NCBI GenBank assembly: GCA_023136815.1
Contig: JAGLQM010000018.1
Location: 1-11,057, forward strand
Direction: 5' to 3'
DNA length: 11,057 nt
Source of the DNA: Thermoplasmata archaeon
GTDB taxonomy: Archaea; Thermoplasmatota; Thermoplasmata; SG8-5
Below are positions 1,871 to 9,576 of this stretch, one piece after another. A program made the position numbers and the translations under genes. The notes beneath the pieces are model-generated. The model worked only from the letters and a program-made list of their open reading frames with translations, was not told the origin of the DNA and ran no database searches. Position 1 is the first letter of the stretch; every line of letters starts with the position of its first letter.

Positions 1871-2227
1871 ATGAATCCTAAAGAAGATGTCTGTCAGATA
1901 AATATCATAAACGAGAAGAAAGTTGAGGCCGTAGGAAAGGAGATGCTGGAAGATGATGTCTATTCTGATCTTTCGGAAACCTTCAGCGCACTGGGCAATA
2001 TCACCCGTGTGAAAATACTCCATATCCTTTCCAGAGATGAATTATGCGTGTGCGACATATCTGCGATCCTGGCTATGAGCATCTCCGCTGTTTCTCATCA
2101 ATTAAGAATTTTGAGAAACATGAAGATAGTGAAGTTCAGGAAAGATGGAAAAATCGTTTACTATTCACTTGATGACGGTCATATAGTTCAGCTTTTAAAA
2201 ATTGCCCGGGAACACATAATGGAGTGA
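1871..2227 (+). CDS. ArsR/SmtB-family metal-sensing repressor, CadC-like
   Basis: A 118-residue winged-helix repressor, the usual family length, that should leave its operator when it binds metal and so switch on the export ATPase behind it. The HTH core is LCVCDISAILAMSISAVSHQLRILR. The alpha-3 site motif ELCVCD supplies Cys59 and Cys61. An N-terminal arm resembling that of CadC contributes Cys8, but the position matching the second arm cysteine of CadC is Ile12. The alpha-5 zinc site D-x-H-x10-H-x2-E is complete (Asp102, His104, His115, Glu118). This mix fits sensing of Cd, Pb or Zn better than arsenite, which is inference. The ATG at 1871 is preceded by a G-rich run (1859-1863) acting as a weak ribosome site. 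The stop is 4 bases before the ATPase start, so the two genes form an operon. Confidence 0.93.
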   Translation: MNPKEDVCQINIINEKKVEAVGKEMLEDDVYSDLSETFSALGNITRVKILHILSRDELCVCDISAILAMSISAVSHQLRILRNMKIVKFRKDGKIVYYSLDDGHIVQLLKIAREHIME

Positions 2228-2231
2228 TATT

Positions 2232-4346
2232 TTGATAGAATTGAAAATCAAAGGGCTTCATTGCGCAGATTGTGTAGGAAAGATCGAGAAATCAATGTCA
2301 TCGCTCGAAGGCATCGAACATATCAAGCTAAATTTCAGCACGAGCAAGATGCAGATAAGGTATAATCCAGATGCTATCTCTCTGGAAGAAATACACTCAA
2401 AAATAAAGAGCCTCGGATATGGCATTCTTGATGAAGAAATAGAAGAAATAAGCGCATTCTCGTTGAAGAACCGCAAGTTTGTTTTTACCTTCATATCAGG
2501 AATTGCGATGCTTCTCGGACTTGTTATGTATTTCCTGACTCCAGATACTGTTCTGATGACATTTTATCTGGACATACACACATCCAGCTTGCTTTTCATC
2601 ATTGCCATGGTCTTCGGCGGTTATCATGCGGTCAAAAAAGCCGGAAAAGCACTGCTCAACAAGGTATTTGTCATAGACTCCCTGATGCTCATTGGCGCAC
2701 TCGGTGCGGTTCTGATTGATGCCTTTGCCGAAGGCGCAGCGGTTCTGTTCCTCTTCTCGCTGGCCGATCTGTTGGAGGGCTATTCCATAGAACGCTCTCG
2801 CAAATCTCTGAACGAGCTTGTGAATATCACACCAAAAGTAGCCTCGGTCAGGAGAGGTGAAAAATATATTGATATCCCGATAGAGGAAATCCAGGTCGGG
2901 GACATGGTGCTTGTAAGATCGGGAGAACGAATTGCGGTAGATGGTCAGGTAATCAAGGGCGTGTCATCGATAAATCAGGCTCCGATAACAGGTGAATCCA
3001 TGCCCGTGACAAAGGATATCGGAGACATTGTTTTTGCTGGTACGATAAATCAGGAAGGTTCGCTGGAAATCCAGGTTATGAAGGGATACAAGGACAGCAC
3101 GGTGGCCAAGATAATTGAGCTTGTGGAATCGGCGGAAGAGCAAAAGGCCCCGATAGAGCGTTTCATAGATCAGTTTGCCAAGTACTACACCCCTGCTGTG
3201 ATAATCATGGCAGTGATGGTGACCGTGATTCCGACATGGGTATTTCAGCAGCCATTTAATGTCTGGTTCTATAAATCACTCCTCCTTCTCCTCATCTCAT
3301 GCCCTTGTGCACTTGCTCTATCCACGCCTATTTCAATAGTATCTGGAATAACAAGCGGCGCAAAGAACGGAGTTCTGTTCAAGGGCGGGGCTTATGTCGA
3401 GCAGCTGGCAAAGATAGATACATTCGCCTTTGACAAGACAGGCACTCTTACCGAAGGCAAGCCCGTGGTGACCGATGTAATTCCATTCAATGGCTATTCC
3501 AGGGAAGATGTCCTTTCGATAGCATCAACGCTTGAATGCCGGTCAGAACACCCACTTGGCAAGGCGATAGTGGAAATCGCAGAACATGAATCTTTCTTCA
3601 GGGAATGTTCGGATTTTACCGCGATAACAGGCAAGGGAATCAAGGGAATTATTGAGAATGAAACATATCTTGTCGGCAGCAAGAAACTGTTCAATCCAGA
3701 GACTTTATCCAATTTCGAGGAGGACATCTTGAAACTCGAAGACGAGGCAAAGACCATAGTCATCGTGGGAAAAGAAAATGAGGCGGCTGGAATAATTGGA
3801 TTATCCGATAAAATCCGGGATGGCAGTAAGCGCATGGTCGAGGATCTTCACGCCATGGGCATAAAACAAGTGATAATGCTCACTGGCGACAACAAGAGAA
3901 CTGCCAAGGCCGTAGCCGAAAAGATAGGAGTGGATGAGTATCATGCGGAACTTCTTCCCGAGCAGAAGGTTTCGTTTATAAAGAAAGCCGCCGAAGAAAA
4001 TAGAAGGATCGCAATGGTAGGTGACGGCATGAACGACGCTCCAGCATTGGCCACAGCGCATCTGGGAATTGCGATGGGCGCGGCAGGATCGGATACCGCT
4101 CTGGAGGTAGCCGATATTGCATTGATGGATGACAACATCTCCAGAATCCCGTATCTTCTTTCCCTGGGAAAAAGAACCATGGGCATAGTGAAGCAGAATA
4201 TCGCACTCGCCATCGGAATCAAGCTGTTGTTCGCCATACTTGTGTTTCCAGGACTGGTAACTCTCTGGATGGCAGTCGCCATTGGCGATATGGGTGTGAG
4301 TTTGGCTGTAATATTCAATGCTCTGAGGTTGACGAAGGTACGTTGA
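2232..4346 (+). CDS. cadA: P1B-type heavy-metal efflux ATPase (Zn/Cd/Pb, CadA/ZntA group)
   Basis: An ATP-driven pump that exports divalent soft metals across the cytoplasmic membrane. At 704 residues it has the normal length. In order: one heavy-metal-associated domain with Cys11-x-x-Cys14 (GLHCADC); about four helices between residues 80 and 185; the actuator loop with TGES at 253-256; the metal-binding helix with Cys357-Pro-Cys359 followed by ALALSTP; the phosphorylation loop with Asp401 in DKTGT; His440-Pro441; the hinge GDGMNDAP at 597-604; and two final helices with Lys664 and Asp686. CPC together with that late Lys and Asp marks the P1B-2 (Zn/Cd/Pb) group rather than copper pumps. The start is TTG at 2232, supported by GGAGTGAT at 2221-2228 that overlaps the end of the repressor gene; no ATG lies nearer the HMA domain. 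Expression should follow metal release of the repressor. Confidence 0.95.
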   Translation: MIELKIKGLHCADCVGKIEKSMSSLEGIEHIKLNFSTSKMQIRYNPDAISLEEIHSKIKSLGYGILDEEIEEISAFSLKNRKFVFTFISGIAMLLGLVMYFLTPDTVLMTFYLDIHTSSLLFIIAMVFGGYHAVKKAGKALLNKVFVIDSLMLIGALGAVLIDAFAEGAAVLFLFSLADLLEGYSIERSRKSLNELVNITPKVASVRRGEKYIDIPIEEIQVGDMVLVRSGERIAVDGQVIKGVSSINQAPITGESMPVTKDIGDIVFAGTINQEGSLEIQVMKGYKDSTVAKIIELVESAEEQKAPIERFIDQFAKYYTPAVIIMAVMVTVIPTWVFQQPFNVWFYKSLLLLLISCPCALALSTPISIVSGITSGAKNGVLFKGGAYVEQLAKIDTFAFDKTGTLTEGKPVVTDVIPFNGYSREDVLSIASTLECRSEHPLGKAIVEIAEHESFFRECSDFTAITGKGIKGIIENETYLVGSKKLFNPETLSNFEEDILKLEDEAKTIVIVGKENEAAGIIGLSDKIRDGSKRMVEDLHAMGIKQVIMLTGDNKRTAKAVAEKIGVDEYHAELLPEQKVSFIKKAAEENRRIAMVGDGMNDAPALATAHLGIAMGAAGSDTALEVADIALMDDNISRIPYLLSLGKRTMGIVKQNIALAIGIKLLFAILVFPGLVTLWMAVAIGDMGVSLAVIFNALRLTKVR

Positions 4347-4883: not shown

Positions 4884-5840
4884 ATGGACAGGATAAAACT
4901 GGGAAACAGCGGCCTCATGGTCTCAAGAATAGGTATTGGCGGGGCGCAGTGGGGCATGGAGAACTATGGGATAACAGACCCCGATACCATCAAAGCCACG
5001 ATAAATCATGCAATTGATTCTGGAATTAATTATCTGGATACTGCTGAATCATATGCTGATGGAGCCTCAGAAAGATACATTGGCCAGGTACTCAAAGAAC
5101 GCGGTGACAGAGAAAACCTGATACTTGCCACCAAAATTCATCCATTACATCTGGGATTCGACGAGGTTCTCAAGGCCTGCAATGCCAGCCTTCGCAGGCT
5201 CCAGACTGATTATATTGATTTATTCCAGATACATGCACCCAGCCCTACTGTTCCGATTTCAGAAACAATGATTGCCCTGCGAACCTTGCTGGACGATGGA
5301 AAAATTCGCCATGTGGGCGTGTCGAACTTCCAGGTATCAATGTGCGAGGTTGCAATTAATTCACTGGACAGTCATGAGATAATATCCAATCAACTTGAAT
5401 ACAGCATCCTCAACCGGAATATAGAAAAAGCAATGCTGAAATATGCCACATGGCGGGAACTCGTAGTTATCGCATACTCTCCTCTAGCCAGGGGAATGCT
5501 CACAGGAAAATTCATGTCTGGCCACGAACTTCCCGTTGACGATCGGCGTCAAAAGAAACCATTATTCTGCAATAAGGAGAACATTGAGAAACTTCAGCCG
5601 CTCATGGAGCTTCTGAAGGAAATCGGTGACAGGAACAATGCTGACATATCCCAGGTTGCTCTTAATTGGCTTCTGAAATTCGATAATGTGATTCCTCTTC
5701 CCGGTGCAAAATCAAGAGAGCAGGTGGACAGTCATGTTGCCGCAACCACATGGACCATGCCAGATGACGACTGGAATGCCATATCCAAGGCTTCCGAGGA
5801 TTTGCGTTTGAACAATTTCTATCATTTTGGACAGGATTGA
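4884..5840 (+). CDS. Aldo/keto reductase
   Basis: A 318-residue cytoplasmic oxidoreductase of the (beta/alpha)8-barrel AKR family that reduces carbonyl groups with NAD(P)H; the substrate cannot be read from the sequence. The catalytic tetrad is complete: Asp52 and Tyr57 in NYLDTAESYADG, Lys84 in ATKIHP and His117 in LFQIHAP. Other family marks are IRHVGVSNF, the SNQLEYSILNR strand and AYSPLARGMLTGKF, and the cofactor end motif IPLPGAKSREQV. The ATG at 4884 has GGAGG at 4873-4877, six bases away. The next gene starts 2 bases after the stop, so the two are probably one transcript. The region upstream holds several hairpins and is shared with the divergent cold shock promoter. Confidence 0.95.
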   Translation: MDRIKLGNSGLMVSRIGIGGAQWGMENYGITDPDTIKATINHAIDSGINYLDTAESYADGASERYIGQVLKERGDRENLILATKIHPLHLGFDEVLKACNASLRRLQTDYIDLFQIHAPSPTVPISETMIALRTLLDDGKIRHVGVSNFQVSMCEVAINSLDSHEIISNQLEYSILNRNIEKAMLKYATWRELVVIAYSPLARGMLTGKFMSGHELPVDDRRQKKPLFCNKENIEKLQPLMELLKEIGDRNNADISQVALNWLLKFDNVIPLPGAKSREQVDSHVAATTWTMPDDDWNAISKASEDLRLNNFYHFGQD

Positions 5841-5842
5841 AC

Positions 5843-6334
5843 ATGGCTAGCAAAAAGGACAAGGATGCCGAAAGTGGCCTCCAGGTATTTGCAATATTAG
5901 GTATTTTCTGTACTATTGGCTTCTATTACTGGACCTGGGATGGTGCTCTTTCTGATTTTGGTATGAGTCAGCGGGCACTATCCTGTTGTAATGTAGTTAA
6001 TATTCTCCTGACAATGATCTTTCTGGCATCCTGGCGGTACACCAAGAAGGAAATTCGAATCAAGGATTATCTGGAAGAGTATTTTGTAAAAAATGTTTCT
6101 ATTTCCATTGAACACATTACTGAAAAATTTCGGATTTCTCAATCATCTGCCATTAAGATTCTGAACATCTGGGCCATGGAGACTGCTGTTAAAGGTGAGT
6201 ATGATGTTATGACTGGCATTTATTCAAAAGAGCCTGAACCTGAGGATGATATACTGCCATTCTGCCCCAAATGCGGCAGTGAATTGGAAATAATTGGAGC
6301 CAGAAATTGCAGCAATTGCAAGGATTTCGAGTAA
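5843..6334 (+). CDS. Two-helix membrane protein with winged-helix-like segment and C-terminal zinc ribbon
   Basis: I do not recognise a named family. The 163-residue protein has two hydrophobic helices (about residues 13-32 and 46-64) preceded by a Lys-rich tip, so both ends are probably cytoplasmic. Residues 70-127 look like a winged helix: two or three helices (DYLEEYFVK, IEHITEKFRISQSSAIKILNIWAME) and then a wing-like VKGEYDVMTGIY. The C-terminus is a zinc ribbon with Cys141, Cys144, Cys156 and Cys159 (C-x2-C-x11-C-x2-C). A membrane-held nucleic-acid-binding or protein-binding regulator is one reading, but function is unknown. The ATG at 5843 is chosen over a TTG six bases upstream; AGGA at 5833-5836 is a modest ribosome site. 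Two-base spacing from the reductase suggests translational coupling. Confidence 0.8.
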   Translation: MASKKDKDAESGLQVFAILGIFCTIGFYYWTWDGALSDFGMSQRALSCCNVVNILLTMIFLASWRYTKKEIRIKDYLEEYFVKNVSISIEHITEKFRISQSSAIKILNIWAMETAVKGEYDVMTGIYSKEPEPEDDILPFCPKCGSELEIIGARNCSNCKDFE

Positions 6335-6584: not shown

Positions 6585-6610
6585 ACTGATACAATAAGGA
6601 TGTGAAACTT

Positions 6611-8797
6611 ATGCAATCATGTACAAATTGTGGCAATAGATATGACGGATATGCCTGTCCAAGTTGTGGCATGGCATCTGCACAGGACTATCAACAGCCT
6701 CCTCCTGCTCATGACCAGTACCCACCATCTTCAGGACAAACGCCGATATATACTCCCATGCCCCCGACGGCTCAGAAGGCAGGTTCAAGCAAGACTCTGA
6801 TAGCCATACTGGTGGTCATTGCACTTGTAATTGCCAGCATTGCGGCGGCAATTCTGTTCATAGGAGTAATAAATCCATTCAATGACGCAGTTGAAGTGTT
6901 CTCTGGTGACTCAATTTCAGGAACCATGCCTGGAACCGGAACCGATGATCTGTACAAGATCCTTCTGGAACCAGGGGAAGTGCTCAACGTGACACTTACC
7001 GGTGTTACAGGCACGGACTTTGACCTCTATGCCTATGAGAATGTGCGTTTCCGGGACGATTTTATAATCACTCACAGTGCCTGCAATTCCAGTTCCGAGG
7101 CCATGACCTTCGTTGCTTGGGAAGGGAACTATTACATTCTGGATGTATATTCCTACAATGGCAGTGGCAACTACACCCTTGATGTTGAGATCGTGGAGAC
7201 AATAAGCCTGGATGATGGCGACAATTCTATTTCTCAGGCAAATCCCCTAGACAGCGGCATGACAGTTTCTGATGATCTGAATGAGTACTATGACACTGAT
7301 GACTATTACGAGATATATGTGAACCAGGGCCAGATACTCCATACTTTCCTGGAGGTTCCGGTTCAGGTGAACACGGACTTTGATTTGTACATATACGATT
7401 CATCAGGCAGCCAGCTTGGTATCTCCGAGGCATCCTACGGAAACGAGGAACTCAGCATTTACGCGACCATCGGTGCCAGTTACTATGTAAATGCCTGGGC
7501 ATACGATGGAATCGGCAATTACTCGCTGTATGCGGAAACCTTCACTGCCCCATCTGCTGACTCGAATAATGATATTATGTCTGCCCAGAATATCTCCGAC
7601 GGAGCATATTTCAACGAGACATTAAATGGATACAATAACGTGGATACGGATGACTATTACTCCATTTATCTATCTGCAGGGGACACAATAACAGCCAACA
7701 TGAGCGGCCCCAGCAATGCAGACTTCGACCTGTACATATGTGATGATGACGGCGATATTGTGGCAAGTTCCAAGGAATATTCCTCATCGGAGGCCATTAT
7801 TTATTCCGCTCCACACGGCGGTTACTATTATGTCAATCCATATGCATACGATGGTTCCGGAACCTACGTCTTGAGTGTTAATATTGGCGACGCAGGTTCA
7901 TCTCTCAGTGCCAATGCTGGATACGATAGACCTATTGGAACTGGCCAGAGCATTGTATTTGATGGAACTGAGTCAAGTGGCCAAATATCCTCATATGCAT
8001 GGGACTTTGGCGACGGTTCAAATGGAACTGGTTCGGCACCCAGCCACACATACAGTACAACAGGCATATACACAGTTACACTGACAGTCTCTGATAATGT
8101 CAACACGGCCACTGACACTGTCACGGTGACGGTTCAGGATGCAGACTCAATGCCAGGCAAGTATGCGGTGGTCATTGGAATCTCTGATTATGAGGGAGCA
8201 GATAATGATCTGAACTTCTGTGATGAGGATGCTGAGAGCTGGACAACCTACCTCGAATCCCAGGGTTATACGGTGCATACCCTCATTGATTCTCAGGCTA
8301 CTAGAGATGGCATATTCAGTGAAATTGAATGGCTAGAAGCCCGGGAAGAGGCAGGCGATTATGTTGCATTTGCATTCTCTGGTCACGGTTCCTACTCCGA
8401 CAGGACCAGATCATCCTCTATCTGTGCCTGGAACATTCAGGAAGAGGATGGAACCATATCTGATGCAGACCTGGGTGCTGCATTCGCTGACTTTGACAGC
8501 GATCACATGTTCTTCTTCTTTGACTCATGCCACAGTGGTGGAATGGACAGTGTTGCAGGTTCCGGCAGATATGTCAGCCAGACTGCTGGTCAAATGGAAT
8601 ATGGCCTTGACGATTCAAAGAGCGAACATGGAATGTGGGTCTACTGGTTCCTGGAGTACTCAGTCAAAGCTCAGGGGTACACAGACCTTACACAGGCTCA
8701 CAATTATGCTGCACCACTGGCAACCAACGATGCAGCAAACATACAGAATTCCATGCACCCGGAGGAAGAATACAGCGGGACCTCATTCTACCTGTAA
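6611..8797 (+). CDS. Membrane-anchored caspase-like (C14) peptidase with zinc ribbon, three PPC domains and a PKD domain
   Basis: A 728-residue predicted cysteine peptidase of the caspase/metacaspase clan. In order: a zinc ribbon (Cys4, Cys7, Cys16, Cys19); a Pro/Gln-rich linker to about residue 58; one membrane helix (62-87) with Lys before and acidic residues after it, so the N-terminus should be cytoplasmic and the rest outside; three PPC-type beta domains (about 97-195, 200-310 and 317-424), each with an FDLY core; a PKD domain (431-513) with WDFGDGS from residue 464; and the C14 domain from 517. The latter has YAVVIGISDY, then His592 in FSGHGS and Cys640 in FDSCHSGG, so the His/Cys dyad is intact. 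DSCHSGG is the metacaspase form, which usually means Arg/Lys rather than Asp specificity. The ATG at 6611 is preferred over GTG at 6602 because GGATGTGA (6598-6605) lies five bases ahead. The gene appears to be transcribed alone. Confidence 0.92.
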   Translation: MQSCTNCGNRYDGYACPSCGMASAQDYQQPPPAHDQYPPSSGQTPIYTPMPPTAQKAGSSKTLIAILVVIALVIASIAAAILFIGVINPFNDAVEVFSGDSISGTMPGTGTDDLYKILLEPGEVLNVTLTGVTGTDFDLYAYENVRFRDDFIITHSACNSSSEAMTFVAWEGNYYILDVYSYNGSGNYTLDVEIVETISLDDGDNSISQANPLDSGMTVSDDLNEYYDTDDYYEIYVNQGQILHTFLEVPVQVNTDFDLYIYDSSGSQLGISEASYGNEELSIYATIGASYYVNAWAYDGIGNYSLYAETFTAPSADSNNDIMSAQNISDGAYFNETLNGYNNVDTDDYYSIYLSAGDTITANMSGPSNADFDLYICDDDGDIVASSKEYSSSEAIIYSAPHGGYYYVNPYAYDGSGTYVLSVNIGDAGSSLSANAGYDRPIGTGQSIVFDGTESSGQISSYAWDFGDGSNGTGSAPSHTYSTTGIYTVTLTVSDNVNTATDTVTVTVQDADSMPGKYAVVIGISDYEGADNDLNFCDEDAESWTTYLESQGYTVHTLIDSQATRDGIFSEIEWLEAREEAGDYVAFAFSGHGSYSDRTRSSSICAWNIQEEDGTISDADLGAAFADFDSDHMFFFFDSCHSGGMDSVAGSGRYVSQTAGQMEYGLDDSKSEHGMWVYWFLEYSVKAQGYTDLTQAHNYAAPLATNDAANIQNSMHPEEEYSGTSFYL

Positions 8798-8976: not shown

Positions 8977-9576
8977 CTATAATTTATTTGCACACATCTT
9001 GCAGTGTGTCCGGTCAGAATCATTCATGGTTCCGCACCTTCCGCATTTGACCATGGGCTTATGCTGAACTTTCACAGTATCCTTGCTCTGCCGTATGGTG
9101 ACATTATGCTGAACATGCTTCATTTCTCTGTATGTTGGAATTGGTTCGGTTCTTTTTCTGCTTCCATAGCCTATTTCGAAGAGGTTTTTCTTCTCTCTCA
9201 GCAATTGCCCACAAATCAGGGCCAGCACTGTCAGAACAAAGTAAATAATCGAATCCATGAAGTCAAGATAGGCCACCAGAAATCCGGCGATAACACTAAT
9301 TCCTGCAATGAGAAAAACTGCATGAACGCTGTTCTGCCTGCCCCATTCCTTCATTGTGGCAAAGCCCAGGGCCATTGGAAAGCATAAGATCCCTAAAAAT
9401 GTCAGTACAGCTCCAAGGGAAGTCCAGAGCCCTCCAAGGGCAGCCAGCTCATTTCCAAAAGCTCCTCCGGTACCTGAAACAATATCACCAACATCCATGA
9501 TTCCCAGGCCCAAATATATGGCGAAAATGCCTATTATGAATGTGAAAATTGTAAGGCCAGTGAGTCCCCGTTTCAT
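8977..9576 (-). CDS. Four-helix membrane protein with C-terminal zinc ribbon
   Basis: A 199-residue protein of unknown function; no named family is recognised. Four hydrophobic helices lie at about residues 5-27, 50-75, 84-104 and 109-126, with a Gly-rich stretch between the first two. A basic cytoplasmic region follows (REKKN, SRKRTE), and the protein ends in a zinc ribbon with Cys178, Cys181, Cys192 and Cys195 (C-x2-C-x10-C-x2-C). The basic tail places the ribbon in the cytoplasm. The ATG at 9576-9574 has no ribosome site ahead of it, but a TATA-like box centred near 9602 is 26 bases upstream, which suggests a leaderless message. It converges on the caspase-like gene, and the two share the pattern of membrane segment plus zinc ribbon. 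Confidence 0.85.
   Translation of the reverse strand: MKRGLTGLTIFTFIIGIFAIYLGLGIMDVGDIVSGTGGAFGNELAALGGLWTSLGAVLTFLGILCFPMALGFATMKEWGRQNSVHAVFLIAGISVIAGFLVAYLDFMDSIIYFVLTVLALICGQLLREKKNLFEIGYGSRKRTEPIPTYREMKHVQHNVTIRQSKDTVKVQHKPMVKCGRCGTMNDSDRTHCKMCANKL

Follow-up and report, generated by a model that had tools for sequence, protein, structure and literature searches.

The window, an 11,057-nucleotide stretch of a Thermoplasmata archaeon contig (GenBank accession: JAGLQM010000018.1), carries on its forward strand at positions 6611–8797 an open frame of 728 residues, in which a zinc ribbon, a single membrane helix, three PPC repeats, a PKD domain and a caspase-fold domain with an intact catalytic dyad are combined in one chain, an architecture proposed in a preliminary description of the locus and confirmed by the open frame, Pfam matches, internal repeat alignment, hydropathy and the presence of His592 and Cys640. 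An in-frame GTG at 6602 offers an alternative start (731 residues); most orthologues have, as here, an ATG a few codons upstream of the first ribbon cysteine. The predicted cytoplasmic ribbon (residues 4–19; 6620–6667) is followed by a proline-rich low-complexity linker (residues 23–63; 6677–6799) and the transmembrane helix (residues 64–84, or 60–84 in the structural model; 6800–6862), beyond which lie PPC repeat 1 (residues 91–198; 6881–7204), PPC repeat 2 (residues 201–313; 7211–7549), PPC repeat 3 (residues 314–430; 7550–7900), the PKD domain (residues 431–510; 7901–8140) and the Peptidase C14 domain (residues 511–728; 8141–8794), all on the forward strand. The archaeal source assumed from the outset is borne out. 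Among named records the nearest are two metagenome-assembled genomes (MAGs), CSMAG_2432 and CSMAG_1752, both carrying the label Methanomassiliicoccales archaeon. This gene is the single C14 match in the window genome (0.95 Mb, 61% complete).

Both genes flanking the caspase gene also pair helices with a ribbon motif: the product of the upstream gene (5837–6334, forward strand) has a hydrophobic stretch, a weak hit to a helix-turn-helix and, at its C-terminus, a ribbon motif, and in G002 and G005 relatives of this gene likewise precede the caspase gene; the product of the convergent gene (8977–9576, reverse strand) has four helices and ends in a ribbon motif, and G001 encodes a relative with 77% identity, about 8 kb away from the caspase gene of that genome. 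Further out, the forward strand carries the 3′ part of gyrA (1–1653), a gene that in G003 and G005, too, lies upstream of the caspase gene; genes for an ArsR-type regulator and, after it, a heavy-metal P-type ATPase (1871–4346); and a gene for a PadR-like regulator that overlaps a BtrH_N/DUF4872 (DarH-like) gene truncated by the contig end (9873–11056).

The C14 domain matches its Pfam family at 59.6 bits against a cut-off of 21.4 (Pfam accession: PF00656; E 4.8e-16), with no match to the C25 family (Pfam accession: PF01364) in the window protein or the window genome. An AlphaFold model of the domain (pLDDT 96.1), compared by Foldseek, adopts a predicted caspase fold whose alignment with metacaspases spans the entire model, reaching the last residue for metacaspases and caspases alike. 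As regards a p10 domain of the metacaspase kind, this structural alignment contrasts with the sequence matches, of which the main ones to metacaspases end at around position 135–139 of 219 and that to MALT1 at 183. The preliminary assignment of the dyad holds in this model, where His592 and Cys640 fall in the catalytic columns of the metacaspase alignment; in an alignment of 57 C14 domains (A3), the columns of the histidine (Ser590-Gly-His592; 8378–8386) and of the cysteine (Asp638-Ser-Cys640; 8522–8530) are invariant, with the S1 aspartate of the latter motif conserved in at least 90%. Cys537 and Asp540 (8219–8230) are the alignment counterparts of Cys92 and Asp95 in the S1 pocket of TbMCA2, following the pocket residues given in the accessible part of PMC4357240. 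To judge from the alignment, an acidic S1 pocket formed by Asp540 and Asp638 would match selectivity for Arg or Lys. The domain is best described as a predicted endopeptidase of C14B (metacaspase/orthocaspase) type, with putative activity and specificity. By eye, about two of the four calcium-binding aspartates of TbMCA2 have counterparts, which we take to be Asp618 and, displaced by one residue, Asp646.

The region between helix and caspase is predicted to form a stalk of repeated domains. The PKD domain (PKD_4, Pfam accession: PF18911; E 3e-19) and the third PPC repeat (Pfam accession: PF04151; residues 348–408, E 9.3e-8) exceed Pfam cut-offs, and the first two PPC repeats, below cut-off in the window protein, are recognised by internal alignment, with pairwise scores among the three segments of 107, 160 and 183 against maxima of 65, 52 and 67 in 200 shuffles each; strands are also modelled in the first repeat. 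The full-length AlphaFold model is of low confidence (mean pLDDT 68, the C-terminal half of the C14 domain being poor), so its Foldseek matches serve for the PPC repeats only, the separate domain model being used for C14; its best match is to the tandem collagen-binding domains of ColG (PDB accession: 5iku), consistent with PPC-like folds. Among nine relatives scanned, PPC exceeds the Pfam cut-off in G001, G007, G009, G013 and G080, with three stretches each in the G009 and G013 orthologues, is sub-threshold in those of G002 and G003, and is absent from the Pfam matches of those of G005 and G023.

The helix stands out with a mean Kyte–Doolittle hydropathy of 3.25, the next best stretch in the window protein reaching 0.74. 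Across all 11 aligned proteins, the 15 residues preceding it contain 2–8 Lys or Arg and the 15 following it 0–1, with 1–5 acidic residues; the window protein has two basic and no acidic residues before the helix, and none and two, respectively, after it, the weakest case being L012, which also has two acids before the helix. PPC and PKD domains are known from secreted enzymes. We infer a signal-anchor helix with the ribbon inside and the C14 domain outside, the orientation put forward in the preliminary description, to which the charge pattern, the PPC/PKD ectodomain and the N-terminal helices of related C14 proteins all lend support. The reverse arrangement, a cytoplasmic caspase with an outside ribbon, was rejected in view of the flanking charges and those same helices. 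N-glycosylation sequons were dropped as evidence of topology, numbering nine in the window protein and none in L003, L004, L005 or L006.

Some match to the protein is found in 83 of 100 relatives searched, many of those among the matches listed being to PKD or PPC only; the window C14 domain as query finds matches in 23 of 400 genomes of the class. Ten whole-protein relatives were aligned with the window protein (A1), from the same family (G001, G002, G003, G005, G007 and G008), the same order (G009) and the same class (G013, G080 and G023), with G001 cut at the N-terminus, G002 at the C-terminus, G008 represented by its N-terminal part and the ribbon of G080 in another frame. A search of archaeal genomes for the domain order had been suggested, and ribbon, helix, stalk and C14 indeed recur in one frame in eight of these ten relatives, across four families, with G080 representing a fifth. 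Two further genomes from the family of the window genome, G004 and G006 (70% and 59% complete), have no C14 match. Identity of the C14 domain to that of the window is 78% for L003 and L004, 77% for L005, 76% for L007 and 69% for L006, falling to 51% for L008, 46% for L009, 44% for L010 and 37% for L012. In the nine relatives with a C14 domain, it is the best-conserved part or lies at most four points below the best, the only parts above it being PKD in L003 (79%), PKD and ribbon in L004 (79% and 82%), PPC2 in L006 (70%) and PKD in L010 (46%). In the tree, eight C14 domains of the ribbon–helix type form one supported group (99/95), outside which fall G013 with G080, and G023; a single origin of the type is not rejected (AU p 0.152 with 11 rows, 0.276 without L012).

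The ribbon cysteines (C4xxC7-x8-C16xxC19) score 16.9 bits against a cut-off of 27.3 for the Pfam DZR family, but they recur: a CxxC…CxxC ribbon precedes the helix in nine of the ten aligned relatives. In the tenth (L010; G080:C32), ribbon and stalk lie in different frames, reflecting an assembly error or a real frameshift. Ribbons also occur on membrane proteins of the window genome that are otherwise unrelated, including L155 (309 residues), with ribbon, helix and an unrelated ectodomain; L135, with a ribbon and then helices; and L129, with two helices and then C-terminal ribbons. L154 (241–1656, forward strand) starts with an export-type helix, which another helix follows, and ends in a tail rich in Cys and His that is RING-like by eye. 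The cytoplasmic ribbon is therefore probably a recurring inner-side module of the membrane proteins of this genome, with a putative role in assembly or anchoring.

The preliminary description held prokaryotic C14 peptidases to be mostly cytoplasmic or effector-like, and a mostly cytoplasmic location does not fit this phylum. Profile A2 finds matches in 99 of 389 phylum genomes, and PF00656 in 58 of 389. A first census comprised 137 C14 frames (the 57 of A3 and a further 80 among the A2 matches listed), 128 of them scorable after exclusion of nine 5′-open frames without a helix; 107 have a helix near a start and ten a ribbon and then a helix (117 passing); of the remainder, four have a helix but a start at odds with the rule, and seven have no helix. 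Because the A2 and A3 profiles were built from exported kin, the census was repeated with the general PF00656 model, yielding 23 new places among the matches listed, including G543:C205, which was absent from the first census; with L268 left out as a frame that could not be resolved, 18 of 22 pass, although L283 does so through a helix that begins only after 468 residues of a frame that is itself doubtful. The four that do not pass are L272, which is cut and has a helix; L282, with a hydrophobic stretch under threshold by eye; and two cytoplasmic-looking exceptions that start with the C14 domain, L267 (G493:C108; 325 residues) and L285 (G039:C1; 337 residues). Their recovery by the general model indicates that the bias of the first census is real, if small, and that kinship alone is no proof of export for the window protein. 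Over both censuses, an N-terminal helix is present near a start in 135 of 150 scorable C14 frames, by a rule that is a hydropathy threshold rather than a signal-peptide predictor and that, applied to whole frames, passes 18 of 69 non-C14 neighbourhood frames as a control. Export is the common case for C14 proteins in the sampled phylum, with two clear exceptions, and membrane or extracellular metacaspases had already been listed by a 2012 survey (PMC3501461). No protein of ribbon–helix type occurs outside the class of the window in the phylum C14 sample. Seven C14 frames found with the general model and absent from the first census (L269, L274–L276, L278, L280 and L281) form a group of 434–451 residues with an N-terminal helix.

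Gene order around the caspase gene is variable, and downstream genes differ between relatives. An M3-type peptidase gene follows directly, in the same direction and some 60–150 bases downstream, in G001 (L034:2407–4125), G005 (L037:11068–11553, open) and G007 (L038:6984–8699), identified by Pfam in G001 and by similarity in the other two; it is absent downstream in the window, G003, G009, G013, G080 and G023, giving three of nine visible loci, the contigs of G002 and G008 ending before this position. An operon logic was rejected, the compared loci sharing no partner or regulator beyond this neighbour in three of nine. McrA has no match in any of 13 genomes of families f1–f3, several of them incomplete, and one match, in G017, among eight other genomes searched; a C25 gingipain-like peptidase is present in seven of the 13, with none in the MAG of the window, where, at 61% completeness, absences count little. 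Isotope probing has shown that uncultivated Thermoplasmata (SG8-5) catabolise protein, and the same study notes extracellular peptidases abundant in archaea not living on protein, Methanomassiliicoccales included, so that peptidase counts do not show protein catabolism (PMC9123169). C14B is listed among the peptidases expressed in MBG-D archaea (PMC6461988), and the available main text of PMC12220078 names C11A, M14B and S08A, with neither 'caspase' nor 'C14'; across the accessible text of these three sediment papers, C11 and C25 are named, and C14B once.

The reading favoured here, at a probability of about one half, is a tethered surface endopeptidase, selective for Arg or Lys, that cuts proteins outside the cell, most likely as food. 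The signal-anchor helix would hold a C14B-like endopeptidase to the membrane, three PPC repeats and one PKD domain would form a stalk carrying the catalytic domain away from it, the acidic S1 pocket would select Arg or Lys, and the cytoplasmic ribbon would serve assembly or anchoring; substrates would most likely be environmental proteins, taken as food or bound by the PPC and PKD domains, or, as a second choice, neighbouring surface proteins. Counted in favour are the conserved layout, the predicted fold and pocket, the helices of the census, the secreted-type C14 paralogues of family f1 that carry PPC, fn3 or Big_5 domains, the occurrence of ribbon and helix in unrelated proteins, the absence of McrA and presence of C25 in families f1–f3, the M3 neighbours and the protein catabolism of SG8-5 (PMC9123169, in part). 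Against it, a tether suits bulk digestion less well than release would, and the M3 neighbour is missing from the window and C25 from its genome. The membrane tether and conserved layout would also suit a maturase whose substrates are not food but the cell's own S-layer, pilin-like or other secreted proteins, a less likely alternative. Stalks of five family f1 proteins, the sixth (L006) being left out, contain 0.5–2.5% Lys and Arg, as would be expected if the protease is to escape its own cutting at Arg and Lys; this paucity is however unspecific, with 1.7% in a 1897-residue C14 paralogue of G001, and the stalks of G009, G013, G080 and G023 reach 3.4–8.1%. Genes that look pilin-like by eye were noticed beside the caspase orthologue of G080 only.

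That the ribbon binds a partner, or senses zinc or redox state, and gates the outside caspase, or that the caspase releases a signal, is rather unlikely, as is the specific form of a transmembrane protease switch in which the cytoplasmic ribbon reports or gates extracellular activity. The ribbon cysteines are kept in frame in four families, and in another frame in the fifth, while the linker varies; the G005 and G007 proteins have two ribbons each; and a short paralogue in G001:C147 (L073:2331–3422, reverse strand) retains ribbon, a Pro/Gln/Tyr-rich linker, helix and C14 domain without PPC or PKD. The argument of the preliminary description, that wiring to a ribbon suggests a sensor, is however weakened by the ribbons that other membrane proteins of this genome carry beside unrelated parts. 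A lone helix would moreover transmit signals badly unless it oligomerised, and no regulator or operon partner is common to the compared loci. Shedding of the ectodomain, by self-cleavage or another protease, was also raised there and seems improbable: many N-terminal helices of kin may be cleavable signal peptides, yet the window protein offers no Lys or Arg for 31 residues past the helix, the first lying 32 residues on, inside PPC1, and the first in L003, L004, L006 and L007 lies 33–34 residues on (nearer the helix in L005, 12; L008, 2; L009, 23; L010, 20; L012, 29; and L073, 27). The least probable reading, and a very unlikely one, is an effector in conflict or cell death: a toxin with its caspase domain at the C-terminus, a protease of defence or a fratricidal protein. 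The PADLOC 'caspase' model matches the C14 domain (E 1.5e-16; three window proteins scanned), caspase domains occur as the C-terminal-most part of polymorphic toxins (PMC3482391), and surface or fratricidal functions of metacaspases were discussed in 2012 (PMC3501461); against this, C14 is among the best-conserved parts rather than a variable tip, a single scan of viral contigs turned up one match, a weak one of 21%, and those neighbouring genes in the window that match Pfam families are of household, regulator, transport or acyltransferase-like type, so that the conflict or death role once suggested finds no support in the neighbourhood.

Several known systems share parts of this architecture. 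From metacaspases and orthocaspases (C14B; PDB accessions: AtMC4, 6w8r; AtMC9, 8a53; TbMCA2, 4afr; Yca1, 4f6o), the window protein differs in being predicted outside on a membrane-anchored PPC/PKD stalk; likeness to the bacterial caspase-like GSU0716 of Geobacter (PDB accession: 3bij) was compared at the level of the domain only. Thermoplasmatota C14 proteins with an ordinary export helix (such as L074 and L081; C14 identity 47% and 38%) also combine PPC and C14 in one chain, without a ribbon before the helix, unlike the window protein. Plants have type I metacaspases, and an LSD1-type zinc finger is the defining form of their prodomain; the window protein instead has CxxC-x8-CxxC, with no zf-LSD1 match in Pfam scans of it and four relatives, and a membrane helix and ectodomain intervene. 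The clostridial collagenases ColG and ColH have PKD and PPC-type accessory domains, as here, on a different catalytic unit, and are secreted. Type I metacaspases likewise have zinc finger, proline-rich region and protease in order, and the same paper describes orthocaspases from archaea that carry Ig-like, EF-hand and sulfatase domains (PMC6426788). Gingipains (C25) and clostripain (C11), secreted or cell-surface cysteine peptidases of clan CD with Arg or Lys specificity, belong to families other than C14 (PMC4357240, accessible part). C14 proteins with a membrane helix or outside location were known already; the order ribbon, helix, three PPC, PKD and C14 is apparently new, no description of it or of any ribbon–helix–C14 protein having been found in the titles and abstracts of the literature searched, which excluded subscription journals and bioRxiv.

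Discussion of prokaryotic C14 peptidases has centred on cell death and regulation. In the sampled genomes of this phylum most of them appear to face outward, one branch being tethered by a helix and a predicted cytoplasmic zinc ribbon; if this holds, extracellular digestion or surface processing would count among the early functions of caspase-type enzymes, and a class of clan CD enzymes that has drawn little notice would be added to those turning over protein in sediments. Were the switch reading true, the gated enzyme would belong to a phylum whose caspase-type enzymes act mainly outside the cell and not in its death. The protein is a clear test object, with C14 domain, stalk and ribbon separable for expression. 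L128 and L152 (G000:C35) hold a long protein with around ten zinc ribbon motifs in tandem.
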